The translations under genes and the position numbers were made by a program. A stretch of DNA of 64,000 bases, taken from NCBI GenBank assembly GCA_035539175.1, contig DATLIY010000007.1, positions 1,116,001 through 1,180,000 on the forward strand, read 5' to 3'. Numbering within the stretch: position 1 is the stretch's first letter; each line of letters opens with the position of its first letter. Below, piece by piece: positions 1-46,853 of the stretch. The notes under the pieces were generated by a model. It was not told the DNA's origin. It saw only the letters and a list, made by a program, of their open reading frames with translations, and made no database searches. This DNA is from Acidisarcina sp. Lineage in GTDB: Bacteria; Acidobacteriota; Terriglobia; Terriglobales; Acidobacteriaceae.

Positions 1-925
1 ACTCATCGATCACAACGCGCATATGCTGCTTTTCCCGCTGCATTTCGCGGAGCAGCTCGTTCACCTTCTTCGTCTCCGGCACAAAGGCTGCGGGGCGCTG
101 GATGTTGGCCACGGTAAGCGTATGCGCATCGGCGTCGGTAATCTGCAACAGGTCGTGCGCAAATGCGATCCCGGTAATCGTATCGATCGAATCCTCGAAC
201 ACCGGAACGCGCGAATAGGGATGCCCATCGAGAGCGGCCAGAAACTGCTCGAGGGTCAGGCTGCCGGGAACCGCGAAGACTTCGGGCCGAGGAGTCATCA
301 CGTCGCGCACCACCTTGTCGCCAAACTCCACGGCGGAACGGATCAGGTCGCGGTCGCTCTCCTCCAGAATACCTTCTTCTTCGCCTGCCTCCAGCAGAGC
401 GTCCACGGCTTCAGAGGGGCTCTCTTCCTCATCGCGCGCCGGAGGCTCGGCCAGAGAGGCAATGGACAGCAGGAAGCCCAGCAGCAGCGTGACTGGAAAT
501 ACCAGGTAAAACAGGATCCGCAGGATGACGCGGTAGCGCGCAATCCAGAGCCCGCGCGTCCGGGTAAAAAAGACGAAGGGCAGCAGCCGGTTGAACAGGA
601 CCACGACCAGCACCACGCCGAGAACCGCCTGTCCAATCTCCGCAGGGCTTGGCCGGTCCGTAATCGAAGCACGATCGAAGAGGAGCACCCCGAACAGCAG
701 CGCCACGCAGGCCAGCGAAAGCTGCGAAACCACGGCCGCCGACAGCGCAATGCGATCCGGGCTCATTCCCAGGCGAGGCTCCACCTTTTGCTCCCACGCG
801 TCGATATTCTCCTGAAATTCGCGCGAGAGAAATTTGCCCATCTCCGAATACATCCGGTCCACATAGGAGCCGAGCGTAAGGACAAACAGCAGAACCAGGA
901 TCAGCAGTACGGCGCCGATGCTCAT
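1..925 (-). CDS. CorC/HlyC-family CBS-domain membrane protein (3' part missing)
   Basis: About 308 codons are inside the window; the C-terminus lies beyond the left edge. The N-terminal 155 residues are hydrophobic with several predicted membrane segments (DUF21/CNNM-like). They are followed by an acidic linker and GILEESDRDLIRSAVEFGD, then RDVMTPRPEVFAVP around residue 207, the characteristic entry into the CBS pair of CorC/TlyC/HlyC proteins. These are membrane proteins linked to magnesium/cobalt transport or tolerance. The ATG overlaps the ybeY stop as ATGA, so translation is probably coupled. phoH-ybeY-corC order is a widely conserved neighbourhood. The transport substrate cannot be read from sequence. 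Confidence 0.85.
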   Translation of the reverse strand, partial: MSIGAVLLILVLLFVLTLGSYVDRMYSEMGKFLSREFQENIDAWEQKVEPRLGMSPDRIALSAAVVSQLSLACVALLFGVLLFDRASITDRPSPAEIGQAVLGVVLVVVLFNRLLPFVFFTRTRGLWIARYRVILRILFYLVFPVTLLLGFLLSIASLAEPPARDEEESPSEAVDALLEAGEEEGILEESDRDLIRSAVEFGDKVVRDVMTPRPEVFAVPGSLTLEQFLAALDGHPYSRVPVFEDSIDTITGIAFAHDLLQITDADAHTLTVANIQRPAAFVPETKKVNELLREMQREKQHMRVVIDE

Positions 926-5977: not shown

Positions 5978-6158
5978 CTCAACGAATCCCGCTGTCCTAT
6001 TGTCGCCTATTGCGGCAGCCCTGGTCATGCAGTAGCGCCTATCCATTGACTTTCCCGGCAGTCGCCCGTTTTTATTGCTGTGACAGAGCGAACCGATGCG
6101 TTCCGTGCTGCGTATTCCATGGGAGGAACGCGTGGCCACACTTTCTGGAGGACTTTGG

Positions 6159-8210
6159 ATGCACAAGCGAGGAATAACTCAAGTACTGGCAGTCGCGGCC
6201 CTCGGGGCTTCCTGCATGGCGCAGATGACACAATCCACTCCGGTGTACAAGCCGATTCCCGGCTTTGATAAGAGCGCGATGGATTTGACCGCCGATCCCT
6301 GCAAGGACTTCTACCAGTACGCCTGTGGCAACTTCGCCACGCAGCATCCGATCCCCAATGACCGGCCCTCGTTCGGGCAGTTCGACAATCTTTATGAGAT
6401 CAATACCCAGGCGCTGCACGGGATCCTGGAGAAGGCTGCGGCCGGGGGAGCAGAGCGCAGCGCAAACGACCAGAAGATCGGCGATTACTACGCAAGCTGC
6501 GTCGATACCGCGTCGATTGAGACAAAGGGCCTTGCGCCTATCCAGCCGGAACTGGACCGCATTGACGCGCTGAAGAGCAAGGACGAGCTGCCCGACCAGA
6601 TCGCCCGGCTGCAGAAGATACAGGTGGCAGCCTTCCTTGACTTTGGCTCGCAGCAGGACTTCAAGGATGCCACCCGGCAGATCGCCGTCGTCGACCAGAG
6701 CGGCCTGGGCTTGCCGGAGAAGGACTACTACCTGCGCACGGACGCCAAAAGCGAAGAGCTGCGGAAGCAGTATGTTCAGCACCTGACCAATCTGCTGAAG
6801 CTGCTGGGCGTGCCTGCCGCAAAAGCTGAGGCCGAGGCGCAATCTGTGATGAAGATGGAGACCGCGCTGGCGAAGGTCTCGATGGGAAACGTCGCGCGCC
6901 GCGATCCGGAGAACGTCTACCACCTGATGCCGCTGACGGCTCTCAAAGCCAGCGAGCCGGGACTGGGCTGGGACAGATTCCTGAAGGGCGTAGGGTCACC
7001 CGTTATCAGTGAAATGAATGTGACCTCGCCGGAGTTTTTCAAGGGACTCGACCAGACGCTTGCCAGCACGAACATCGAAACGATCCAGACCTATTTGAAA
7101 CTGCGGCTGATCGATTCGCTGGCGATGCGGCTGCCCAAAGCTTTCGACGAAGAATCCTTCGACTTCCATGGGCGCAAGCTGATGGGGACTCCGGAGCAAT
7201 CGGTGCGCTGGAAGCGCTGCGTATCCGCGACCGACGCGGCGATGGGCGAGGTGCTGGGCCAGGTTTACGTGCAACAATACTTCTCCCCGGACCAGAAGGC
7301 TAAAACGCTGCAGATGGTGCACGACATCGAGGCGCAGATGGGCAGGGATCTGGACTCGCTGGACTGGATGAGCGCGGCAACCAGGGCCAAGGCAAAGGAG
7401 AAGCTGCAGCAGGTCGCCGACAAGATCGGGTATCCCGACAAGTGGCGCGACTACTCCGGACTGGAGATCAAGCGTGACGATGCGCTGGGGAATTCCCTGC
7501 GCGCTCGCAGCTTCGAAGTAGCCTTCCAGTTGGCAAAGATCGGCAAGCCGGTTAACCGCGGGCAGTGGGATATGAGTCCGCCGACGGTGAACGCCTACTA
7601 CAACTCCAGCATGAACGACATCAATTTTCCCGCCGGCATTCTGCAGCCTGCTTTCTATGACAAGAATGCCAGCGACGCCACCAACTACGGGCACATTGGA
7701 GCCGTTGTCGGGCACGAATTGACGCATGGTTTCGACGACCAGGGGCGCAAGTTCGATGGCAAGGGAAACCTCTCCGACTGGTGGACCGCCGCAGACGCGA
7801 AGAACTTTGAGGAGCGCACGAACTGCCTGGTGGAAGAGTATGGCAACTTTACTGCCGTGGACGACGTAAAGGTGAACGGCAAGCTCACGCTCGGCGAGAA
7901 CACCGCCGACAATGGCGGCCTGCGCCTGGCAATAATGGCGCTGATGGCACGGGCGCAGCAGTCCGCAATCGACATGAAGCAGAAGACCGATGGCTACGAT
8001 CCCCTGCAGCAGCTCTTCCTGGGGTGGGCGCAGAACTGGTGCAGCAATGAGCGTCCCGAGATGCTGCGCATGATGGCCCAGGTGGATACGCATTCGCCGG
8101 ATCGAACGCGTGCCAATGGCGTCGTGGTGAACATGCCGGAGTTTGGCGCCGCCTTCGGCTGCAGGAAGGGAGCGCCCATGACGCCGGTGAAGCAATGCCG
8201 CGTCTGGTAG
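6159..8210 (+). CDS. M13 family zinc metallopeptidase (neprilysin/PepO-like)
   Basis: 683-residue secreted endopeptidase. A signal sequence (about residues 1-21) precedes ADPCKDFYQYACGNF, the conserved M13 N-terminal block. The zinc site is GHELTH at 518-523 (His519, Glu520, His523) and ENTAD at 580-584 supplies the third ligand. The C-terminus keeps the family CRVW ending. The ATG at 6159 follows GGAGG by seven bases, much better than the upstream frame opening at 6096. Such enzymes cleave oligopeptides outside the cytoplasm. It converges on the S53 protease gene with only 20 bases between stops. Confidence 0.95.
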   Translation: MHKRGITQVLAVAALGASCMAQMTQSTPVYKPIPGFDKSAMDLTADPCKDFYQYACGNFATQHPIPNDRPSFGQFDNLYEINTQALHGILEKAAAGGAERSANDQKIGDYYASCVDTASIETKGLAPIQPELDRIDALKSKDELPDQIARLQKIQVAAFLDFGSQQDFKDATRQIAVVDQSGLGLPEKDYYLRTDAKSEELRKQYVQHLTNLLKLLGVPAAKAEAEAQSVMKMETALAKVSMGNVARRDPENVYHLMPLTALKASEPGLGWDRFLKGVGSPVISEMNVTSPEFFKGLDQTLASTNIETIQTYLKLRLIDSLAMRLPKAFDEESFDFHGRKLMGTPEQSVRWKRCVSATDAAMGEVLGQVYVQQYFSPDQKAKTLQMVHDIEAQMGRDLDSLDWMSAATRAKAKEKLQQVADKIGYPDKWRDYSGLEIKRDDALGNSLRARSFEVAFQLAKIGKPVNRGQWDMSPPTVNAYYNSSMNDINFPAGILQPAFYDKNASDATNYGHIGAVVGHELTHGFDDQGRKFDGKGNLSDWWTAADAKNFEERTNCLVEEYGNFTAVDDVKVNGKLTLGENTADNGGLRLAIMALMARAQQSAIDMKQKTDGYDPLQQLFLGWAQNWCSNERPEMLRMMAQVDTHSPDRTRANGVVVNMPEFGAAFGCRKGAPMTPVKQCRVW

Positions 8211-8230: not shown

Positions 8231-10027
8231 CTATGGATTGCTGGGCGTTTGCGGAACTCCCGCCGATGGCACATTGGGCGCGAGGATGAAGTCCTTGCCA
8301 TACAGCGTGCCGTTGCCTAGAACCATGTTGTAGCGGGGCCCGGTGTAGTACTTGCCATTGAAGCCAGAGATATTCGTGTGGAAGACACGCAGCGTCGGGC
8401 TCTTCTCCTGCGCGGCTGCCAGCGCATAGATGGCGTAATTTTCGTTGCCCTGGCGATGGCCCGATCGCTCAATTTTGAGTGCGGTCAGCCCGGCAAAGGC
8501 GGGAGAGGCAGCGCTGGTTCCAATCACCTGATACAAGGTGCCCCCGCTCACGGTTACGACAGAGCTGCGATCTGGATGACATGGCCATTCTGCGCCGAAG
8601 GGACAGCCGCCCATATGTAACGCAAGATCCGGAACCGCGCGCATTCTGGAGCCGGTATGCGACGTGATCTGAAATTGTGGCCGGCGAAAGAAGATGCTCG
8701 TCCCACCTCCCGAGCTCCAATAGCCCCCGGTAGCCGGCGTGCGGTAGAAGATATCCATTTGCAGCGGATCGCCCCAGGCCGCTTCCTTGATATAGGCGGA
8801 ATCGAGGTTTGGATGGAGCGCGCTGTAGGTGGTGATGAGGTTTGTGCCGCCGACCCCTGTCACGTGCGGGCTAGCAGCGGGCACTTCCACCGATACTCTG
8901 AAGGAGCCACAACTGCTGGTTGCAGCGACATCGAAGCAGGCAGGCGGAGGTATCGACTTTGCCCCAAGATCCCCAGAGCTGGCGACGAAGGTAATGCCCT
9001 GCGCATTCCCCTGTTTGAACAGGGAGTCCCACACGTTGAGCAGTCCGAGTTGATCGACGCCGCTATTGTATTCGGCGGTATAGCCAAGTTCAGCCGAGCC
9101 GAAGGACATGTTGACGATATCCACTGCGTTGCTCTCAACGATGGTGGTGAGTCCGGCAAAAATGGACGCATCGGACAAATCGGGCAGATTGTAGAGAACA
9201 ATCTCTGCTCCCGGAGCCATGCCCCCAGCCTGCTGGATGTCAAGATGGGTTTCGAGCGAAGCGATGGCGTCAAAGGGCGCCCCGCCGCGAATCTCCACCT
9301 CGAAGATGCGGGGCGTACTGAGCTTCTCATGGCCGAAGTACAAATCCATATCTGCTGGGTTATACGCGCCGGTCATCAGGATGCCGATACGGGCGCCCTT
9401 ACCCGTGTAGACCTGGTAGCTGGGAAACTCATATGCCTGCTTCAGGTCGTCGAACCAGTAGGGACCGGCGGAAGAATAGCGGTCCTCCGGCGCTGCTGAA
9501 GCGAACTGCGCATGGGAGTGCATGTGGATGGTGTCGGAAAAATCCATCACGATGGCTCCGGCAGAGGTAAGCAGAGGCGACAGCCGCAGTGGTTGCGTGG
9601 CAGCCAGGACCGTCTTGCCATTGGCAAGGGAAGCATGGGCGACGCGGGTGGAGAAGACTCGCTCCACGTCTCCCACAGTGCCGGCGACATGCATGGAATG
9701 CGTATGCACGCCTATTACCTTGAAACCCTCGCCGCGAAGCTCCTGGGAGATCGCGTTCATCAGCCGTGTCGACGGCGCGAACCGGGCCGCGAATTGCTGC
9801 GGTGTAAGCCATTGCTGGAAAAGCGAAGAGTCCGGGTCGTGCAGGTCGTTGAGCAGTTGGTCCAGCTCGGATTCGTGCTGCAGCGGCAGGTAGAGATCGA
9901 ACTCTACCGGCTGAGCCGCCGGGGCACGGTCTTGAATCTTCGCTTTCTCAAGAGCCGCGGCAGAAGGAATGCAGGATATTGCAGCAGCCAAGCCGAGGAT
10001 GACGGCTAAGGGTAGGCTGATTCTCAT
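8231..10027 (-). CDS. Sedolisin/kumamolisin-type S53 peptidase
   Basis: 598-residue secreted serine-carboxyl protease, active at acid pH in characterised relatives. A signal peptide (MRISLPLAVILGLAAAIS) is followed by a pro-domain (to about 190, with FDLYLPLQ and the WLTPQQFAARFAP block) and the catalytic domain. Catalytic residues are Glu259 and Asp263 (ETHLD), oxyanion Asp353 (SSGD) and nucleophile Ser505 (GTSAASP). The C-terminal calcium site, normally D-I...G-x-G-x-D, reads Asn552-Ile...Gly563-Pro-Arg565-Tyr-Asn567, so both Asp ligands are Asn and a Gly is Arg. GGAGG lies four bases before the ATG. It could still be an active enzyme with altered calcium need. Confidence 0.92.
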   Translation of the reverse strand: MRISLPLAVILGLAAAISCIPSAAALEKAKIQDRAPAAQPVEFDLYLPLQHESELDQLLNDLHDPDSSLFQQWLTPQQFAARFAPSTRLMNAISQELRGEGFKVIGVHTHSMHVAGTVGDVERVFSTRVAHASLANGKTVLAATQPLRLSPLLTSAGAIVMDFSDTIHMHSHAQFASAAPEDRYSSAGPYWFDDLKQAYEFPSYQVYTGKGARIGILMTGAYNPADMDLYFGHEKLSTPRIFEVEIRGGAPFDAIASLETHLDIQQAGGMAPGAEIVLYNLPDLSDASIFAGLTTIVESNAVDIVNMSFGSAELGYTAEYNSGVDQLGLLNVWDSLFKQGNAQGITFVASSGDLGAKSIPPPACFDVAATSSCGSFRVSVEVPAASPHVTGVGGTNLITTYSALHPNLDSAYIKEAAWGDPLQMDIFYRTPATGGYWSSGGGTSIFFRRPQFQITSHTGSRMRAVPDLALHMGGCPFGAEWPCHPDRSSVVTVSGGTLYQVIGTSAASPAFAGLTALKIERSGHRQGNENYAIYALAAAQEKSPTLRVFHTNISGFNGKYYTGPRYNMVLGNGTLYGKDFILAPNVPSAGVPQTPSNP

Positions 10028-30336: not shown

Positions 30337-33300
30337 CTAATGCACCTCCGGTGCAATGGATTCCTCCGACTGCGGCGGCAGCAGCATGCGTCGCAGATTG
30401 AAGCCCAGTGGCGCAGCCTGAAATCCCGCATCGAGCAGCAGCCTCGCCATCCAGTGCAGATGGGCGGGCTGGCCGTTGATGGCCGCCACCAGCATGCCGC
30501 CACGACGATCGGCATTATGGCGCTGCATCTCCTCCTGGGTTGTCCTCGCCAGAAAATGCGCCAGATCGCGCGCCACATTCGTGCGCTCTGGTTCCTCCAG
30601 CGGAAGAAAGACCTGCAGGTTCGGATTGTTGCGGCGCAGATAAGCAACCAACTCCCCATTGCGTAGCACGACACTCGCGCCAACGCTCCGGGCGAGCGAT
30701 CGCGGAGCCTGTTCCTCTCCCTCATCAGCCTGTGCTGCGGCAGGCCAGCGCAGCACGGAACCATACGGGTTCGCCGGGTCCGTCGCTGCGAGGAGCACCA
30801 TCTCCGACTTTTCCGGCTGCGCGGAATTTCTGAGAGACCGCAGAAGATCGACCGCCGCCGGCAACGCGAATTGCGTCGCGCCAAGACCAGCGACAAAGTA
30901 TCCGCGCCGAACCCTGCCGCTCTCCTCAAGCGCCTTCAGCACATCGTAGATGGCAGAAAAACCTCCAGGAAGATTCTCAGACGCTACGGATTCGCGCGTC
31001 AGCACGCCGTAGCGATGGAGCAACTGCAGCGCTATCGCGTGACTCCACTCCGTCTGCAAAGCGCTCGCTGTCTCCGCGGTTGCCTCCTCCACCGGCACCA
31101 GCGCCCAGCGGCCCTGCGCGCTTGGCGGAGTGGTTCGGCGGGAGCGATATGCAGGCAAATTATGCTGGTGTCTCGATGGACGCACAGTCGAAGGCTTTGC
31201 CACATAGGCCCGCAGTGCATGGAAGGTATCATTGGTCACCTTGCCGCGCCACACCAGGCTCCAGAGTGCATCGAGTGTCTCCCCGGGATAGCCGCCTCCC
31301 ACCGCATCGTGTATTTGCGAAAAGAATGCAGCGCCGCCACGACGCAGTTCTTCCAGAATCGCCAACTCCCGCGGCGAGAGCGGTGCGCCGCTGCCGGCAT
31401 CGCGCGCAGAGCGGAGCGGCAGCAAAGATCTGAGCTTATCGGCGAGATAAAGAGACACGCGTCCGTCATGCTCGCCCAACGCATCGAAGCCGCACCACAT
31501 CACTTCCCCCGCAGCGATCAGCGTGTCCAGATGGGCGGAAGAATAATTCACCAGACGCGCGGGAAGAATCGCGGTCTCCAGCAAGGAAGCCGGCAGCGGG
31601 GCACCCTGCAGGTTCTCGATCGCATCCAGCAATGCATCCAGGCCGCGCCGTGGCTGCAATACACCTTGCCAATGCGTAAACAGCCGCGCCAGCACCTGCG
31701 GCTCAACCGGCTCCACTTCCTTGCGCAGGCGCGCCAGAGATTTACGCCGGATAGAGCGCAGCACTTCCACGTCGCACCACTCTCGATGAACGCCACCCGG
31801 GCGAAAGCCTCCCTCAACAATGCGCTCATCCGCCATGAGGATGCGCAGCGCCTTCTCCACTTGTGCGGCGTCCAGAGAAAATCTTGCAATCACCTCGTCC
31901 AGCGTGAAAGGACCATGAGTGCGCGCGTAGCGGCGGACCAGTTCCACCACCGGCGCACCAACCTGCGTAAGCAACGCGGCAGGCAGGCCACGCGGCAAGG
32001 AAAGTCCAAGGGCATCGCGGTATCGGGCCGCATCTTCCACCGCAATCCATCTCTTCTCGCCTGCGATTTTCACTTCAACCACACGTCTTACGCGCTGCAG
32101 GCGGTCCAGGTTCTTCAGCAGGTTGGGACTAACACAGCGGCGAGCCAGCTCGTCCCTAGAGATATCTCCGAGATGCAGCAGCAGATCATGCATGCCATCG
32201 GCGGAGCGGGCACGCATCGGCTCGGCAAGAGATTGAAGATGCTCTTCTACTTCCGCAATGGCATCCGCATCCAGAAGCTCGCGCAGATCGGCGTCGCCCA
32301 TCAGTTCGCGAAGCTGATCCTGATCGATGGAGAGTGCCTGCGCCCTGCGCTCAGCGAGGGGAGCGTCGCCATCGTAGATATAGTTCGCCACATAGCTGAA
32401 GAGCAGCGAAGAGGCAAAGGGCGAGGGTGTCTGCGAATCCGCGACATGCACGCGAATGTTACGCGTCGCAATCGCACGCAACGTTTCAAGGAACGCGGGC
32501 ATATCGAAGACATCGCGCAGGCACTCACGGTACGCCTCCAGCAACATGGGAAATGCCGGATAGCGGGATGCGACCGACAAAAGGTCATGGGCTCGCTTGC
32601 GCTGCTGCCATAGCGGAGCGCGGCCCTGGGCACGGCGGCGGGGCAGGAGCAACGCACGCGCTGCGCTCTCGCGAAATTTCGCAGCGAACAACGCAGTCGA
32701 TCCGAGCTGGCGCAGGACGAGGCTGGTGGCCTCGGCCGGATCCAGCAAAAACTGCTGAACATCCGGCACTATGTCACTATCGGGAAAGCGCAGCACCAGG
32801 CCATCGTCGCCCCACAATGGCTCGACGTCCGGCCCGCCCGCCGCTCGACTCCTCTCTGTGATCGCCATCGCCCAGGGCGCGTGAATGCGGCTTCCGAAGG
32901 GCGTAAGGATGCAGACACGCCAGTCTCCCAGTTCGTCGCGGCAGCGCTCAATCACAATCGTGTGATCATCTGGAACAGCCGTAGTTGCAATTTGCTGATC
33001 CCCGAGAAAGCGCATCATGTTTTCCGCTGCTGCCGGATCGAGATCGTGTTCGCGAGCTAATTTACTGAGCGCGGCCGTTCGTGGCATGGCGCAAAGCTCG
33101 CGCACAAGCTGACCAATGCGGCGGCCAAACTCCAGCGGTCGCCCTGCGGCATCGCCATGCCAGAAAGGCATCTTTCCCGGCTCGCCCGGCGCGGGAGAAA
33201 CCAGCACGCGGTCATGCGTTATCTCATCGATGCGCCAGGTGGACGCACCAAGCACGAACGTGTCTCCTGTGCGGCTTTCGAAGACCATCTCTTCATCCAG

Positions 33301-35067
33301 CTCCCCCACTCGAACTGGCTTGGTCTCGGAGCTGGCGAGAAAGACCCCATACAATCCGCGATCGGGTATGGTTCCACCATTCAAAACAGCGAGGATCTTG
33401 GAGCCTTCGCGCGGAGTCAGAAGATTGCGATTGCGGTCCCAAGTGATGCGCGGACGCAGCTCGGAAAATTCATCTGAGGGATATCTGCCGGCCAGCAGAT
33501 CCAGCACGCCCTCAAATGCCGCGCGCGTAAGAGAAGCGAAGGGCGCTGCGCTACGAATGATTCTGTACATCTCCTCGACGCTGATCTCCGGGTCGATCGG
33601 CGGTACGTCCTTCCGTCGGCTTGCGAGTGTGCGCTGCGGCGGTTGAGCGGTAATGGCAACGATCTGCTGGGCCAGAACGTCGAGCGGATTCCGCAGGTAG
33701 CGCGTAGACTCCACCAGCCCTTCATGCATGGCGCGGGTCACCGCTGCACAGGCCACCAGGTCGGCACGAAATTTAGGAAAGATGATGCCTTCGCTGGCTG
33801 CGCCGACATGGTGCCCTGCGCGGCCAATACGCTGCATGCCGCTGGCAACCGATGGCGGCGCTTCAATCTGCACCACGAGATCGACTGCGCCCATGTCGAT
33901 GCCAAGCTCCAGCGACGATGTGGCCACCAGCGCACGGATCTGACCGGCTTTCAGCAGCTCCTCTATCTCTGTGCGCTGCGCAGCCGCCAGCGAACCGTGA
34001 TGGGCCCGCGCCAGTGTCTCGCCTGCCAGTTCGTTCAGCGCTCCCGCAAGACGCTCCGCAATGCGGCGGCTGTTTACAAAGATGATGGTCGAAGTACGAG
34101 AGCGCACAATCTCCAGCAGGCGCGGATGAATTGCACTCCAGATGGAGGTGCGCTTTGGCTCCTTGGAGGCAGTTTCGCTGGCGCGCTCCTCTACCTGTCC
34201 CAGGCGCGCCATGTCCTCTACAGGAACTTCAACCCGCAGTTCCAGCCGTTTCGGTTCGGTGGCATTGAGGATGGTTACAGGCCGGAATGCCGGAAATGCT
34301 GGATCCTCTATATCGCCCGTAAACTCCGCCGCGAGGTTATCGTGCTCGCTTGCCTCCGATGTCTCCGGAGTCGCTGCTTCCACGCCCGAAAGAAAGTGGG
34401 CTACCTCCTCCAACGGTCTCTGCGTTGCGGAGAGGCCGATGCGTTGCAGCCTTTGACCGCAGATCGCCTGGAGGCGCTCGAGAGAAAGAGCGAGGTGAGC
34501 GCCGCGCTTGGTCGGCACCAGAGCGTGAATCTCGTCAACAATCACGGTCTCGACGCTGCGCAGGCTAGCGCCAGCATCGGAGGTCAGAATCAGGTATAGC
34601 GATTCCGGCGTGGTAATCAGTATCTCGGACGGATGCCGGCGAAAGCGACTGCGCTCTTTCTGTGGAGTGTCGCCGGTGCGCACGCCGATCTCTGGTGTAT
34701 GAAAGGCGACTCCGCGGCTGCGCGCCATATCGGCGATGCCCGCAAGCGGCATGCGCAGGTTGCGCTCCACGTCGACCGCCAGTGCTTTCAACGGGCTGAT
34801 GTAGAGTACGCGGCAGCCTTCCGCGGCTGGCTCGCTCGCGTGCAGCATTAGCCGGTCAAGGCACCAGAGAAACGCAGTCAGCGTCTTTCCCGTACCCGTG
34901 GGCGCAAGAATGAGAGTGCTTTCTCCGCGCGCGATGACAGGCCAGCCGAGCCGCTGTGGCGCGGTCGGGCGCTTGAATACGGCGCGAAACCACTCTGCCG
35001 TAACCGGATGAAAGAGCGAAAGTGGATCAGGCTCCTGCGACTGCCCGCGTTGCCCTCGCTTCGTCAT
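30337..35067 (-). CDS. lhr: Lhr-family ATP-dependent helicase
   Basis: 1576-residue superfamily 2 helicase of the long Lhr type. Walker A APTGTGKT is at 55-62 and VIVDEIHALVPTKRG is motif II. IGLSATQRPLEEVAHFL and QRIGRAGHHVGAASEG (motif VI) follow, then the Lhr-core winged helix and beta-barrel domains and a long C-terminal part. Relatives unwind DNA/RNA hybrids and are induced by DNA damage in mycobacteria. The frame continues 76 codons upstream, but ATG 35067 has GGAG five bases before it and starts the conserved region. Divergent from the cdd operon. Confidence 0.93.
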   Translation of the reverse strand: MTKRGQRGQSQEPDPLSLFHPVTAEWFRAVFKRPTAPQRLGWPVIARGESTLILAPTGTGKTLTAFLWCLDRLMLHASEPAAEGCRVLYISPLKALAVDVERNLRMPLAGIADMARSRGVAFHTPEIGVRTGDTPQKERSRFRRHPSEILITTPESLYLILTSDAGASLRSVETVIVDEIHALVPTKRGAHLALSLERLQAICGQRLQRIGLSATQRPLEEVAHFLSGVEAATPETSEASEHDNLAAEFTGDIEDPAFPAFRPVTILNATEPKRLELRVEVPVEDMARLGQVEERASETASKEPKRTSIWSAIHPRLLEIVRSRTSTIIFVNSRRIAERLAGALNELAGETLARAHHGSLAAAQRTEIEELLKAGQIRALVATSSLELGIDMGAVDLVVQIEAPPSVASGMQRIGRAGHHVGAASEGIIFPKFRADLVACAAVTRAMHEGLVESTRYLRNPLDVLAQQIVAITAQPPQRTLASRRKDVPPIDPEISVEEMYRIIRSAAPFASLTRAAFEGVLDLLAGRYPSDEFSELRPRITWDRNRNLLTPREGSKILAVLNGGTIPDRGLYGVFLASSETKPVRVGELDEEMVFESRTGDTFVLGASTWRIDEITHDRVLVSPAPGEPGKMPFWHGDAAGRPLEFGRRIGQLVRELCAMPRTAALSKLAREHDLDPAAAENMMRFLGDQQIATTAVPDDHTIVIERCRDELGDWRVCILTPFGSRIHAPWAMAITERSRAAGGPDVEPLWGDDGLVLRFPDSDIVPDVQQFLLDPAEATSLVLRQLGSTALFAAKFRESAARALLLPRRRAQGRAPLWQQRKRAHDLLSVASRYPAFPMLLEAYRECLRDVFDMPAFLETLRAIATRNIRVHVADSQTPSPFASSLLFSYVANYIYDGDAPLAERRAQALSIDQDQLRELMGDADLRELLDADAIAEVEEHLQSLAEPMRARSADGMHDLLLHLGDISRDELARRCVSPNLLKNLDRLQRVRRVVEVKIAGEKRWIAVEDAARYRDALGLSLPRGLPAALLTQVGAPVVELVRRYARTHGPFTLDEVIARFSLDAAQVEKALRILMADERIVEGGFRPGGVHREWCDVEVLRSIRRKSLARLRKEVEPVEPQVLARLFTHWQGVLQPRRGLDALLDAIENLQGAPLPASLLETAILPARLVNYSSAHLDTLIAAGEVMWCGFDALGEHDGRVSLYLADKLRSLLPLRSARDAGSGAPLSPRELAILEELRRGGAAFFSQIHDAVGGGYPGETLDALWSLVWRGKVTNDTFHALRAYVAKPSTVRPSRHQHNLPAYRSRRTTPPSAQGRWALVPVEEATAETASALQTEWSHAIALQLLHRYGVLTRESVASENLPGGFSAIYDVLKALEESGRVRRGYFVAGLGATQFALPAAVDLLRSLRNSAQPEKSEMVLLAATDPANPYGSVLRWPAAAQADEGEEQAPRSLARSVGASVVLRNGELVAYLRRNNPNLQVFLPLEEPERTNVARDLAHFLARTTQEEMQRHNADRRGGMLVAAINGQPAHLHWMARLLLDAGFQAAPLGFNLRRMLLPPQSEESIAPEVH

Positions 35068-35166
35068 GAACTCTCCATGAGAGTATCCCGTCGTTTTTCG
35101 TAGGATGCAATCCGCCCTGGATATGCTGAAACCCGGACACGCCAAACCGGGGAGGGCCGGAGAAGC

Positions 35167-35195
35167 TTGCACCGAACCTGAGTAGACGTTAGCCT
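35167..35195 (+). promoter_or_regulatory. Promoter of the nucleoside-salvage operon, leaderless layout
   Basis: TTGCAC (35167-35172), exactly 17 bases, then TAGCCT (35190-35195). Nine bases later is the cdd ATG (35205), so the predicted start point is about two bases before the start codon. No Shine-Dalgarno is present. Confidence 0.6.
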
Positions 35196-35204
35196 CAGTG
35201 CACG

Positions 35205-35639
35205 ATGAAAAGCGAAGAACCCCCGCTGACGCCAGAGCAGGTTGCGAAGCTGATCGACGAGGCGAAGTCTGCTGCCGCCAACGCGTATGCGCCATATTCG
35301 GGATTTCGCGTCGGTGCCGCCCTGTTCCTGCGCGATGGCGCAGTCGTTACCGGTGCCAATGTGGAGAATGCCTCGTATGGGCTGACGATATGCGCGGAAC
35401 GCTCCGCGGTAGTTCGAGCCATTGGCGAACGTGGGCCGCAAACACGCATCCGTGCCATCGCACTGGCAAACCTCAACGCGGCTTCCTCCTCCCCTTGTGG
35501 AGCTTGTCTACAGGTGTTGGCGGAGTTCACAGAACCCGACGCATGGGTTGTCTTCCCGGTTGCAGGCAGGCTGGAGACTCGGCGATTCGCGGAGCTTTTC
35601 CCCTTCCCATTCCAACTCAGCACGAGCGCAACTTCTTAG
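35205..35639 (+). CDS. cdd: Cytidine deaminase
   Basis: 144-residue zinc enzyme that deaminates cytidine and deoxycytidine to uridine nucleosides. Zinc ligands are Cys63 (CAE, with catalytic Glu65) and Cys98/Cys101 (PCGAC). PYSGFRVGAAL and GANVENASYGLTICAERSA are the conserved substrate and active-site blocks. First gene of a five-gene cluster that continues with phosphorylases, a permease and a kinase for the products. Confidence 0.96.
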   Translation: MKSEEPPLTPEQVAKLIDEAKSAAANAYAPYSGFRVGAALFLRDGAVVTGANVENASYGLTICAERSAVVRAIGERGPQTRIRAIALANLNAASSSPCGACLQVLAEFTEPDAWVVFPVAGRLETRRFAELFPFPFQLSTSATS

Positions 35640-43388: not shown

Positions 43389-46300
43389 ATGACTTGGCTT
43401 CGCAGCAGGCCGATATTCCGCATGGTGCTGGCATCTGCGCTCGTGGTCTGCGCAGCGGCCGCCTATATTGCAGTGTCCGCGCATCACCCTCCACCCGTGA
43501 ACCGTTCGCAGTGGATCCGGCAGGAGTCCTTTCTTTTTGTCACTCTGGCTGTGCTCAACCTGATGTTGATCGCAGCCATGCGCAAGATCTTCCGCACGGA
43601 CCATGCCAGCCTGGAGCAAGTTGCTCTGCTGCAACGGAGCATCCTCGAGTCGGCAGGACCGATGATTCTCGCCACCGATCTCGATGGGCGATTTACCGCC
43701 TTTAATCCTTCTGCAGAGCGGATGCTTGGCTACTCCAAGGAAGAGATGCTGGGCCGCGCAAGATTTGAGGATATCTTTCCGGAGGGTAATCTACGACGGG
43801 TTGGGCGGCAGCTGGTGATGAATCTCAACCTCTCCCTGGACCCCCTCGCGGAATCCGACGACCCGGAGAATCCCCTGCGGGATTATGTCGAGTATGTGAG
43901 CAGCTTCCCCCCCAACCGCGTCCGAGGATTCGAACTGGAGTACAAGCGGAAGGACGGAAGCACTTTTCCGGGAATGGTCTATCTCTCAGCGATTCGCGAA
44001 CCGGAGGGCTCAGTCACCGGCCTGCTGGCCATCTGTACCGATCTCAGTGCCGCCAAGCGTACCGAGCATGCGCTGCGTGAAAGCCAGGAGCGGTATCGCG
44101 ACCTCTTCGAGAACTCGAATGAGATGATCGCAACCCTCAGCCCGCGGGGGCGCTACCTCTACGTAAATCCCGCATGGCAATCGCATTTTGGCCTGGGTGC
44201 CGACGACTTCGAAGGCCTGATCAGTTTTGAGTCCGCCTTTCCCCCGGAGACGCAGGCCACGGCAGCGGCGCTCTTCCGCCGGGCCTTGACCGGGGAGCGG
44301 GTGGAGCGCGTTTCGCTGCGCTTTCATGGAGCGCAGGGCAGGTTCACCGAAGTGGAAGGCAACCTGAGCTGCCGCCAGGAAGACGGCCAACCGGTCTCTG
44401 TGCGCTGCCTCTTCCGCGACGTAACCCAGGAGCGGCAACGCGAGCGGCAGATGGCGATGCAGCTGCTGGTGGCGCAGCTCGTGGGGGAAAGTACGCGCCC
44501 CGAGCAGGCGCTGCCACGTGTGCTGGAGTCGCTGGGCACGAGCCTGGGATGGGACGTCGCCATCATCTGGCGGGTGGATGAGGAGCAGCAGTACCTTAGC
44601 TATCACGCCGGCTGGTACGCCCCGGGCCACGCCTATCAGGAGTTCGGACGGGGAAATATCGGTCACATCCTCACTCGCGGAGAAGACATTCCGGGGCGCG
44701 TCTGGAGCGCCCGCAGAGCCTTCTGGATCGTGGATCTGCGGCGGGATGCGTCCTTTGGACGGCTGGAAGCCGCAGAGGCCAGCGGCCTGATTACCGGCTG
44801 GTCGGTCCCTGTGCGTGTCGGGAATAAGGTGATCGCGGTCCTCGAGTTTTTCAGCCACGAGCAGCAGAAGGAAGACCCGGAGATGATGGCCGCCGTGGAG
44901 ACGGTATCCGCCTCGCTCGGGCAGTTCATGGCCCGCTCCGCTCAGGAGGGCCAACTCCGCGAGTTGAACCGCCACAAGGAGTTCATCCTGAACTCAGTGG
45001 CCGACGGCATCTTTGGCACCGACCGGGACGGTGTGGTCATCTTCGTCAACCCCGCAGCGGAAATGCTCCTGGGGGCTGCCGAAGGCTCGCTCATCGGCCG
45101 CCAGGTGCAGGAAGTGATCCACATGGGGCGCAGAGGCCCGGCGACCGCAGACGGTTCCTACCCCACGATGCGCGCTTTTTCCACCCCACAGGGGACCACC
45201 GGCCAGGACCTCTTCTTCCGCAGCGATGGCACTTCATTCCCGGTGGAGTTCTCGGTTACGCCCATGCAGGAAGGCGGCAGCGTGGTGGGCAGCGTGTTGA
45301 GCTTCCGGGATATCAGCCAGCGATACGCTCTCGACCGCATGAAGGATGAGTTCATCTCCACCGTAAGCCACGAGCTGCGGACTCCGCTCACGTCCATCCG
45401 TGGCGCGCTGGGGCTTCTCTCCGCCGGCCTCGTAGGGGAAGTGAGCGAGAAGGCGTCGAACCTGCTCCGCATTGCCGTCAGCAACTCCGACCGGCTGGTG
45501 CGCCTGATCAATGACATTCTCGACCTGGAGCGCATGCAATCCGGTCGCGCTCCTCTCTCCTTCCGCCGCACAACGCTCAGCGAAGTCGCACAGCAGGCAG
45601 TCGATGCCATGATGCCGATGGCGGATGCGGCGAAGATTCGCATCGTGCTGGAAACGGGAACCGCCGCGGTGGACGCCGATCCCGACCGCTTGTTACAGGT
45701 GCTGACCAATCTGCTGAGCAACGCCATCAAGTTTTCTCCTGAGGATGCGACGATACGGGTGCTGATCAAAGCGGGCTCCGAGGGCGCCACGCTGAGCGTG
45801 ATCGATCAAGGCCGTGGCATTCCCGCGGATAAGCTGGAGTCGATCTTCGATCGCTTCCAGCAGGTGGATGCCTCAGACTCTCGTCAGAAGGGCGGCACGG
45901 GGCTGGGACTCGCCATCTGCAGAACGATTGTTCACCAGCACAATGGCCGCATCTGGGCCGAGCGCAATGCGGATCGCGGCACCACCTTCTCCCTCTTTAT
46001 CCCCTTCCACCAAAGCATCGGAGTGGAATCCTCGCCCTTTCCCGACCGCGAAGCTCGTGACGGTACCATCCTGATTTCCGATTCGGATGCCCGCACTCGC
46101 CGCACCGTAGCGGAGCACCTCACCCGGCACGGATACAAGGTGGTGGAAGCAGAAGATCCCGAACAGACAATGACGCTGGCTCGACGCCATCCGCTGGAAG
46201 CCATCCTGCTCGATGTCTCTTTGAGCGGAAGGAACGGCTGGAAGACGCTGCAAATGCTGAAGGGCGATCCCCTCACCTCCACAACTCCCGTCGTAGTGTT

Positions 46301-46853
46301 GAGCGTGCTTCCATCTTCGGAGCAACCCGAGATCCCCGAGCACATCGACGGCTGGGTGCAGAAGCCTCTCGACGAGGTCTCGCTGCTGACGGAGCTGTCT
46401 CGCGTGCTGGGCGGCAGCCATGGCGTTGCCCGTGTGCTCATCGTGGAAGACGACGAAGACCTGGCCCGCATCATCCTGGCGACATTCGCACGCGCCGGCA
46501 TTGAAGTCCATCACGCTGCAACACGGCGCCGCGCCATTGAGCTGTGCGAGACAATGCCGCCGGATTTGCTGATTCTCGACCTTTCCCTGCCGGACGGCGA
46601 TGGCTTCAATGTTGTAGATTGGCTTCGTCAGCAGAAAGATCTCAGCCATACGCCGCTGGTTGTTTACTCGGCCCGCGACGTCATGGATTTTGAACGAAAA
46701 CAGTTGCAGCTTGGGCCCACTGAGTTTTTGACCAAGGCGAGCGTTCCGCCGCAGGAGGTCGAGGCTCTGGTCCTCACCATGCTCCGCCGCCTTCGTAAAA
46801 TGGAAGACGGGCTCGATGCACCGAGCGACGGAGCTATCTCGCAATCCGCGTGA
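43389..46853 (+). CDS. Hybrid sensor histidine kinase with PAS, GAF and two receiver domains
   Basis: 1154 residues. Two N-terminal membrane segments (about 10-30 and 48-64) are followed by PAS (80-220), PAS (230-350), GAF (365-515), a third PAS (525-645), HisKA with phospho-acceptor His661 (VSHELRTPL), HATPase (N box LLSNAIKFSPE, GTGLGLAICR) and two receivers. The receiver Asp residues are Asp942 (AILLDVSL) and Asp1064 (LLILDLSL). The input domains suggest intracellular small-molecule or redox sensing. With the lone receiver and lone Hpt downstream, it forms a multistep His-Asp relay. No clear ribosome site precedes the ATG. Confidence 0.93.
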   Translation: MTWLRSRPIFRMVLASALVVCAAAAYIAVSAHHPPPVNRSQWIRQESFLFVTLAVLNLMLIAAMRKIFRTDHASLEQVALLQRSILESAGPMILATDLDGRFTAFNPSAERMLGYSKEEMLGRARFEDIFPEGNLRRVGRQLVMNLNLSLDPLAESDDPENPLRDYVEYVSSFPPNRVRGFELEYKRKDGSTFPGMVYLSAIREPEGSVTGLLAICTDLSAAKRTEHALRESQERYRDLFENSNEMIATLSPRGRYLYVNPAWQSHFGLGADDFEGLISFESAFPPETQATAAALFRRALTGERVERVSLRFHGAQGRFTEVEGNLSCRQEDGQPVSVRCLFRDVTQERQRERQMAMQLLVAQLVGESTRPEQALPRVLESLGTSLGWDVAIIWRVDEEQQYLSYHAGWYAPGHAYQEFGRGNIGHILTRGEDIPGRVWSARRAFWIVDLRRDASFGRLEAAEASGLITGWSVPVRVGNKVIAVLEFFSHEQQKEDPEMMAAVETVSASLGQFMARSAQEGQLRELNRHKEFILNSVADGIFGTDRDGVVIFVNPAAEMLLGAAEGSLIGRQVQEVIHMGRRGPATADGSYPTMRAFSTPQGTTGQDLFFRSDGTSFPVEFSVTPMQEGGSVVGSVLSFRDISQRYALDRMKDEFISTVSHELRTPLTSIRGALGLLSAGLVGEVSEKASNLLRIAVSNSDRLVRLINDILDLERMQSGRAPLSFRRTTLSEVAQQAVDAMMPMADAAKIRIVLETGTAAVDADPDRLLQVLTNLLSNAIKFSPEDATIRVLIKAGSEGATLSVIDQGRGIPADKLESIFDRFQQVDASDSRQKGGTGLGLAICRTIVHQHNGRIWAERNADRGTTFSLFIPFHQSIGVESSPFPDREARDGTILISDSDARTRRTVAEHLTRHGYKVVEAEDPEQTMTLARRHPLEAILLDVSLSGRNGWKTLQMLKGDPLTSTTPVVVLSVLPSSEQPEIPEHIDGWVQKPLDEVSLLTELSRVLGGSHGVARVLIVEDDEDLARIILATFARAGIEVHHAATRRRAIELCETMPPDLLILDLSLPDGDGFNVVDWLRQQKDLSHTPLVVYSARDVMDFERKQLQLGPTEFLTKASVPPQEVEALVLTMLRRLRKMEDGLDAPSDGAISQSA

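Follow-up and report, generated by a model that had tools for sequence, protein, structure and literature searches.

The sedolisin gene and its surroundings

The window, which is the whole stretch of 64,000 nucleotides of Acidisarcina sp. DNA that was analysed, carries a gene for a pre-pro-sedolisin (peptidase family S53) at 8231..10027, encoding a protein of 598 amino acids (598 codons and a stop codon). The extent of the gene and the residue numbering were correct in the initial annotation; the gene and all of its parts named below lie on the minus strand, with the coding sequence running from 10027 to 8231. A probable Sec signal peptide covers approximately residues 1-25 (9953..10027), recognised as the hydrophobic N-terminus of the translation with its boundary set by eye. 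It is followed by an activation prodomain at residues 30-146 (9590..9940; Pfam PF09286, E 8e-21, and alignment of the structure model to pro-kumamolisin 1t1e) and by the S53 catalytic domain at about residues 186-585 (8273..9472), as delimited by VIA-align against kumamolisin-As 1sio_B. The catalytic residues named at the outset were all found under their numbers when the translation was read: Glu259 and Asp263 in an ETHLD motif (9239..9253), the oxyanion Asp353 (8969..8971) and the nucleophile Ser505 in a GTSAASP motif (8513..8515). Across the 64 sequences of the related group described below, the Glu, the Asp and the oxyanion Asp are each present in 64/64 and the Ser in all 62 that reach its position.

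An AlphaFold model built from 23 sequences of the window and the group, in which the model number equals the protein number minus 24, reached a pLDDT of 86.8 and a pTM of 0.92. The model matched pro-kumamolisin 1t1e in Foldseek (E 3.0e-39) and, in VIA-align, intact pro-kumamolisin 1t1e with a Z of 47.6 over 486 aligned residues and kumamolisin-As 1sio_B with a Z of 48.0 (rmsd 1.9, 335 residues aligned, model range 162..561). By sequence, the closest solved relatives are kumamolisin (1t1e, E 6.7e-13), kumamolisin-As and sedolisin, while NCBIfam offered no family for the gene product up to E 0.1. The Pfam subtilase model also matches the protein (E 3.3e-13), which is explained by the fold common to S8 and S53; identity as an S8 subtilase with an Asp-His-Ser triad was ruled out, as the S53-type Glu259, Asp263, Asp353 and Ser505 align with those of kumamolisin. 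Thus the protein belongs to S53 by its fold, its prodomain and its catalytic residues, and is predicted to be an acid-type sedolisin that the cell secretes. The kumamolisin subfamily is marked by Glu32 and Trp129 beside the triad. In the window protein these places hold Met218 and Phe309, and the group shows Met in 42/64 and Phe in 60/64 of its sequences at the two columns, so that the protein is, on these residues, not a kumamolisin proper.

Beside the sedolisin gene lie genes for an M13 peptidase, an EamA transporter, the DNA polymerase III delta subunit, LptE and FtsH; the M13 gene (6096-8210, plus strand) encodes a full-length neprilysin-type metallopeptidase and is convergent with the sedolisin gene. 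Comparison of 60 loci, with short flanks of up to 4 kb for some and about 1.5 kb for others, gave no conserved neighbourhood: the widest flanking family was shared by five loci, which are closely related on the tree, and every other family by two to four. Two larger flank clusters, of 54 and 12 loci, seem to be shadow frames of the S53 genes themselves, judging by the coordinates of the subset checked. The M13, EamA, DNA polymerase III delta, LptE and FtsH neighbours consequently found no support as a known conserved context among these 60 loci. Elsewhere in the window we observed a 1652-aa Lhr-type large helicase with four Lhr winged-helix matches (30337-35295, minus strand) and a 1154-aa hybrid histidine kinase with PAS, GAF and receiver domains (43389-46853, plus strand).

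Residues at the C-terminal calcium site

In kumamolisin, a calcium ion ties together the loop that precedes the conserved Gly-x-Gly, bound by two Asp carboxylates and by backbone carbonyls; its ligands are D316, I317, G334, G336 and D338. A two-Asp calcium site of this kind is usual in the characterised members of S53 and lies outside the definition of the family. The equivalent loop of human TPP1 is reported to be calcium-tied likewise, with D517, V518, G539, G541 and D543 as ligands (PMC2914745).

The register of this loop was read from a joint alignment of 64 distinct group sequences, 54 other S53 sequences and kumamolisin. The Asp316 column holds Thr551 (8375..8377) and the Ile317 place Asn552; the same register was returned by a profile-profile alignment with six canonical S53 proteins and when the profile of the group was aligned with PDB chains of kumamolisin, where the Thr551 column of the group again coincides with Asp316. 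In the profile-profile alignment the loop stretch FHTNISGFNGKYYTGPRYNMVLGNGT aligns without a gap over 26 residues to the canonical loop of L028. Asn552, Arg565 and Asn567 are indeed present in the protein as first described, but the assignment of Asn552 to the first calcium Asp was off by one residue. The other two correspondences were borne out by the joint and the profile-profile alignments: Arg565 (8333..8335) is the counterpart of Gly336, and Asn567 (8327..8329) that of Asp338. The two-Asp C-terminal calcium site is therefore absent from the protein, Thr551 and Asn567 standing at the ligand places, and the former calcium loop as a whole (residues 549-574; 8306..8383) contains neither Asp nor Glu, and includes Lys559 and Arg565.

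The Asp316 column of the group holds Arg in 24, Gln in 14, Thr in 10, Asp in four, Asn in three, His in two and Lys in two of 62 sequences, with three singles, compared with Asp in 46/52 of the other S53 sequences. The Asp338 column holds Asn in 47, Ser in eight, Asp in five and Thr in one of 61 group sequences, as against Asp in 44/50 of the others. With the gapped sequences set aside (three of the group, four of the others), both calcium Asp residues occur together in none of 61 group sequences and in 44/50 other S53 sequences, a contrast too strong to be accidental; 52 of the 61 have neither, five only the second and four only the first, while 6/50 of the others lack both. All five sequences that keep the second Asp carry Arg or Lys at the Asp316 place (Fisher p 0.009, with relatedness ignored) and Gly, Asn or Ala at position 552, so that no group sequence has both Asp in either register. 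Furthermore, the loop is free of Asp and Glu in 31/61 group sequences and 1/50 others, and its net charge is zero or above in 56/61 and 6/50, respectively. Arg565 is private to the window copy, which is the only one of 61 group sequences with Arg at that place.

The Asn/Arg/Asn pattern, whose conservation in the clade the initial annotation had suggested checking, is thus conserved at Asn567, was not recovered at Arg565, and falls away at Asn552, the first ligand place being Thr551. The broader suggestion of a calcium-independent or differently stabilised S53 enzyme nonetheless gains from the comparison, on a different basis from that pattern: the carboxylate pair is gone throughout the group, most members have a loop of neutral to basic charge, and the catalytic residues are intact. 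As read from the alignments, the loss of calcium ligands is real and not private to the window copy. Calcium independence is a plausible interpretation, and it rests on the group rather than on one sequence. A disulfide between Cys475 and Cys483 was considered as a substitute for calcium and set aside as not specific, the two columns being Cys in 39 and 40 of the 54 other S53 sequences.

A widespread group with a conserved C-terminal tail

In a maximum-likelihood tree of the catalytic core, obtained by a quick search over 119 sequences with the columns of the calcium loop and the tail left out, the 64 group sequences form one side of a branch with an SH-aLRT of 100. The group also stands apart by score: a search of 398 genomes of the window's family gave at least 22 matches in 20 genomes at 598 bits or more, followed by a next best of 268, and in the combined set a gap from 383 to 270 bits separates the group from the rest. 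Redundancy among the sequences was removed on the basis of the last 350 residues; fragments from L093 and L108 were dropped, as was a 246-aa fragment from L035 on account of its length, and two further copies from G313 (L143, L160) stand outside the 64. Among the 54 other S53 sequences, L002/L004 and L003/L005 each represent a single gene that enters the count twice.

Group members come from records named Acidobacteriota, Eremiobacterota (Vulcanimicrobiota in NCBI) and Pseudomonadota; many are from metagenome bins, for which single taxonomic labels may be wrong. At least 15 of the 149 genomes covered by the Eremiobacterota search carry a member of the group, as do 12 of 299 in the order to which G423 (a bin labelled Rhodospirillales) belongs, five of 297 across the phylum of the window and one of 349 in the order of G429, this one being G429 itself; all of these counts are lower bounds, as few candidates were scored per genome (three in the family search). 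In a genome of the same genus as the window (G001), the last 400 residues of the copy are identical to those of L036, a record named Acidobacteriaceae bacterium. Taken together, the alignments and the tree describe a distinct and widespread S53 group that lacks the usual calcium-binding residues. No calcium-less S53 group was found in the titles and abstracts of the literature searched, which comprised open-licence papers only.

Two group members stand side by side in L038:1156-5806, probably through tandem duplication, and four Eremiobacterota members (L043, L046, L049, L056) show, by eye, a lipobox-like Cys in their N-termini and may be lipoproteins.

Outside the group, neither Asp is present in L087, L013, L114 and L057/L058 (two sequences in L058) among the 54 other S53 sequences, which indicates that loss of the calcium ligands is not unique within the family. 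L057 (a Proteobacteria bin) and L058 (Rhodanobacter sp. L36) belong to another line and encode two S53 proteins per locus; where read, their calcium Asp places are Asn and Ser (FHNITRG ... PGWS), an independent loss of the site.

The window protein ends in AGVPQTPSNP (residues 589-598; 8234..8263), a tail conserved up to its final residue. Among complete group proteins, 60/61 end in AGxPxxxxNP at the exact C-terminus, usually as AGxPQTPSNP; by position, the 61 sequences have A in 60, G in 60, any residue, P in 60, Q in 48, T in 50 or S in 11, P in 38, S in 40 or T in 18, N in 60 and P in 60. The exception, L127, has the motif followed by two more residues. The codons of the tail vary synonymously, which indicates that selection acts on the protein. 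The alignment to kumamolisin-As stops at residue 585 (model 561), short of the tail, and the last five or six residues of the tail are under pLDDT 50 in both AlphaFold models. It is the most unusual part of the finding and is new here.

A role of the tail as a sorting tag shared with other proteins was rejected after a whole-genome pattern search of seven genomes, which gave 18 places, eight of them S53 group genes and ten unconvincing (four without a stop at the end, four in open reading frames of 3 to 15 aa, one of 94 aa and one of 181 aa), the reversed control pattern also giving ten. The pattern was strict, missing the group member of G436 itself, and looser tags could have escaped it.

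Proposed folding without calcium and its alternatives

The reading that we favour, with a probability of about 0.7, is that the gene encodes an active secreted S53 endopeptidase of a subfamily that would fold and mature without structural calcium. By analogy with the family, the Sec signal would export the proenzyme, the pro-kumamolisin-type prodomain would hold it inactive, and low pH would bring about self-cleavage, using Ser505, Glu259 and Asp263, with Asp353 in the oxyanion hole. With Thr551 and Asn567 at the ligand places, the carboxylates gone and no acidic residue left in the loop, direct packing of side chains and backbone would have to hold the loop in place of the ion. In strong acid, carboxylates would be protonated and bind calcium weakly, so that loss of the ligands may be useful in acid habitats, and S53 peptidases have been tied to an acidophilic lifestyle (PMC6411800). 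However, kumamolisin-As, described as working at pH 4 and 60 C (PMC11294657), has a canonical loop (FHD...GWD in the alignment to PDB chains), and three other S53 genes in the window's own genome keep both Asp. Acidity alone thus does not explain the loss, which belongs to the lineage and is not a genome-wide habit; acid life would appear to permit, and not to require, the loss of the calcium site.

As to what took the place of the ion, the deepest branch of the group (L125, L126 and L127) reads K/D, K/D and R/D at the two ligand places (support 99, the rest 93; tree rooted on kumamolisin). A basic side chain at the first place with the second Asp kept makes it likely that the cation was replaced first by such a side chain and that the remaining Asp then changed to Asn, a route that comes from one quick tree in which L125 is flagged for odd residue make-up and long branches occur elsewhere. 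We tentatively extend this route to a fuller proposal, possible though short of probable: the ion would have given way first to Lys or Arg at the position of Asp316 and later to neutral packing, and the change would have brought with it the new obligatory tail AGxPQTPSNP-COOH as a working part, acting as a brace folding back on the former calcium loop, as a built-in product-like inhibitor in the active-site cleft, or as a binding tag.

The site could instead have been dispensable and lost several times with no particular substitute, an account that concerns the replacement of the ion and is compatible with calcium independence. The five changes of calcium-Asp state needed on the tree and the four other S53 lines without either Asp fit such an account, but the loop is conserved in its new form (Ile553 in 54/62, Asn567 in 47/61) and the near-invariant tail accompanies the group, both of which suggest that the ion was replaced rather than that the site simply decayed; we consider repeated loss without a substitute rather doubtful.

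It is less likely that calcium or another cation is still bound at the site, though more weakly, by the side-chain oxygen of Asn567, by Asn552 or its backbone, and by the remaining loop carbonyls. Asn can ligate calcium, and Asn567 with backbone carbonyls could still form a weak site; Asn fills the Asp338 place in most of the group, position 552 is Asn, Gly or Asp in 52/62, the overall fold is unchanged, and the nine group sequences that keep one Asp count against a calcium-free reading. This is offset by the absence of the Asp pair from every group sequence, by a basic residue (Arg or Lys) at the first of the ligand places in 26/62 and by a loop charge of at least zero in 56/61, to which the window copy adds Arg565.

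A reading of the copy as a protease in decay or without activity, its loop having drifted, is very improbable: Arg565 is unique to this copy, but its catalytic residues are intact, the ligand loss is common to the whole group, and comparison with its nearest relative L036 (412/595 residues identical overall, 22 of the last 23) gives a dN of 0.218 and a dS of 1.337 by Nei-Gojobori (dN/dS about 0.16), as expected under purifying selection. Substitutions unique to this copy combined with loss of activity, which the initial annotation had named as refuting its own idea, are not what was found as far as the sequence tells.

An S53 enzyme maturing without calcium, the reading preferred here, would bear on a wider question. 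Sedolisins are regarded as regularly containing calcium, and in human TPP1 the maturation of the zymogen depends on it, chelators being reported to inhibit the processing of the zymogen and not the mature enzyme (PMC2914745). A natural, conserved group without the ligands offers a direct route to the role that the ion plays as the enzyme folds and matures, and illustrates how a metal may be exchanged for side chains in evolution. Enzymes of the S53 fold that work without calcium in acid could also be of practical use as acid-stable proteases.

Among known systems, kumamolisin (1t1e) and kumamolisin-As (1sio) share with the group the prodomain and catalytic domain, the fold, the Glu-Asp-Ser triad and the oxyanion Asp, at 24-31% identity in the fold alignments; the group differs in lacking the Asp316/Asp338 pair and in its extra conserved C-terminal tail. 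Tripeptidyl-peptidase 1 (3edy, 3ee6) shares the fold of the pro-form (Z 33.8 to 34.4) and the triad and, unlike the group, keeps D517 and D543 as reported calcium ligands (PMC2914745). Pseudomonas sedolisin (1ga1/1nlu) shares the catalytic fold (Z 45.2 to 45.4) and the triad, whereas it keeps both Asp in its C-terminal loop, with no such tail visible in the aligned part. The calcium-independent subtilisin BPN' (1sub, 1suc), a subtilase fold without its calcium site, also matches the model (Z 26.3). There the loss was engineered by design, at another site and in an enzyme with other catalytic residues, whereas in the S53 group the calcium ligands have been lost naturally, by substitution.
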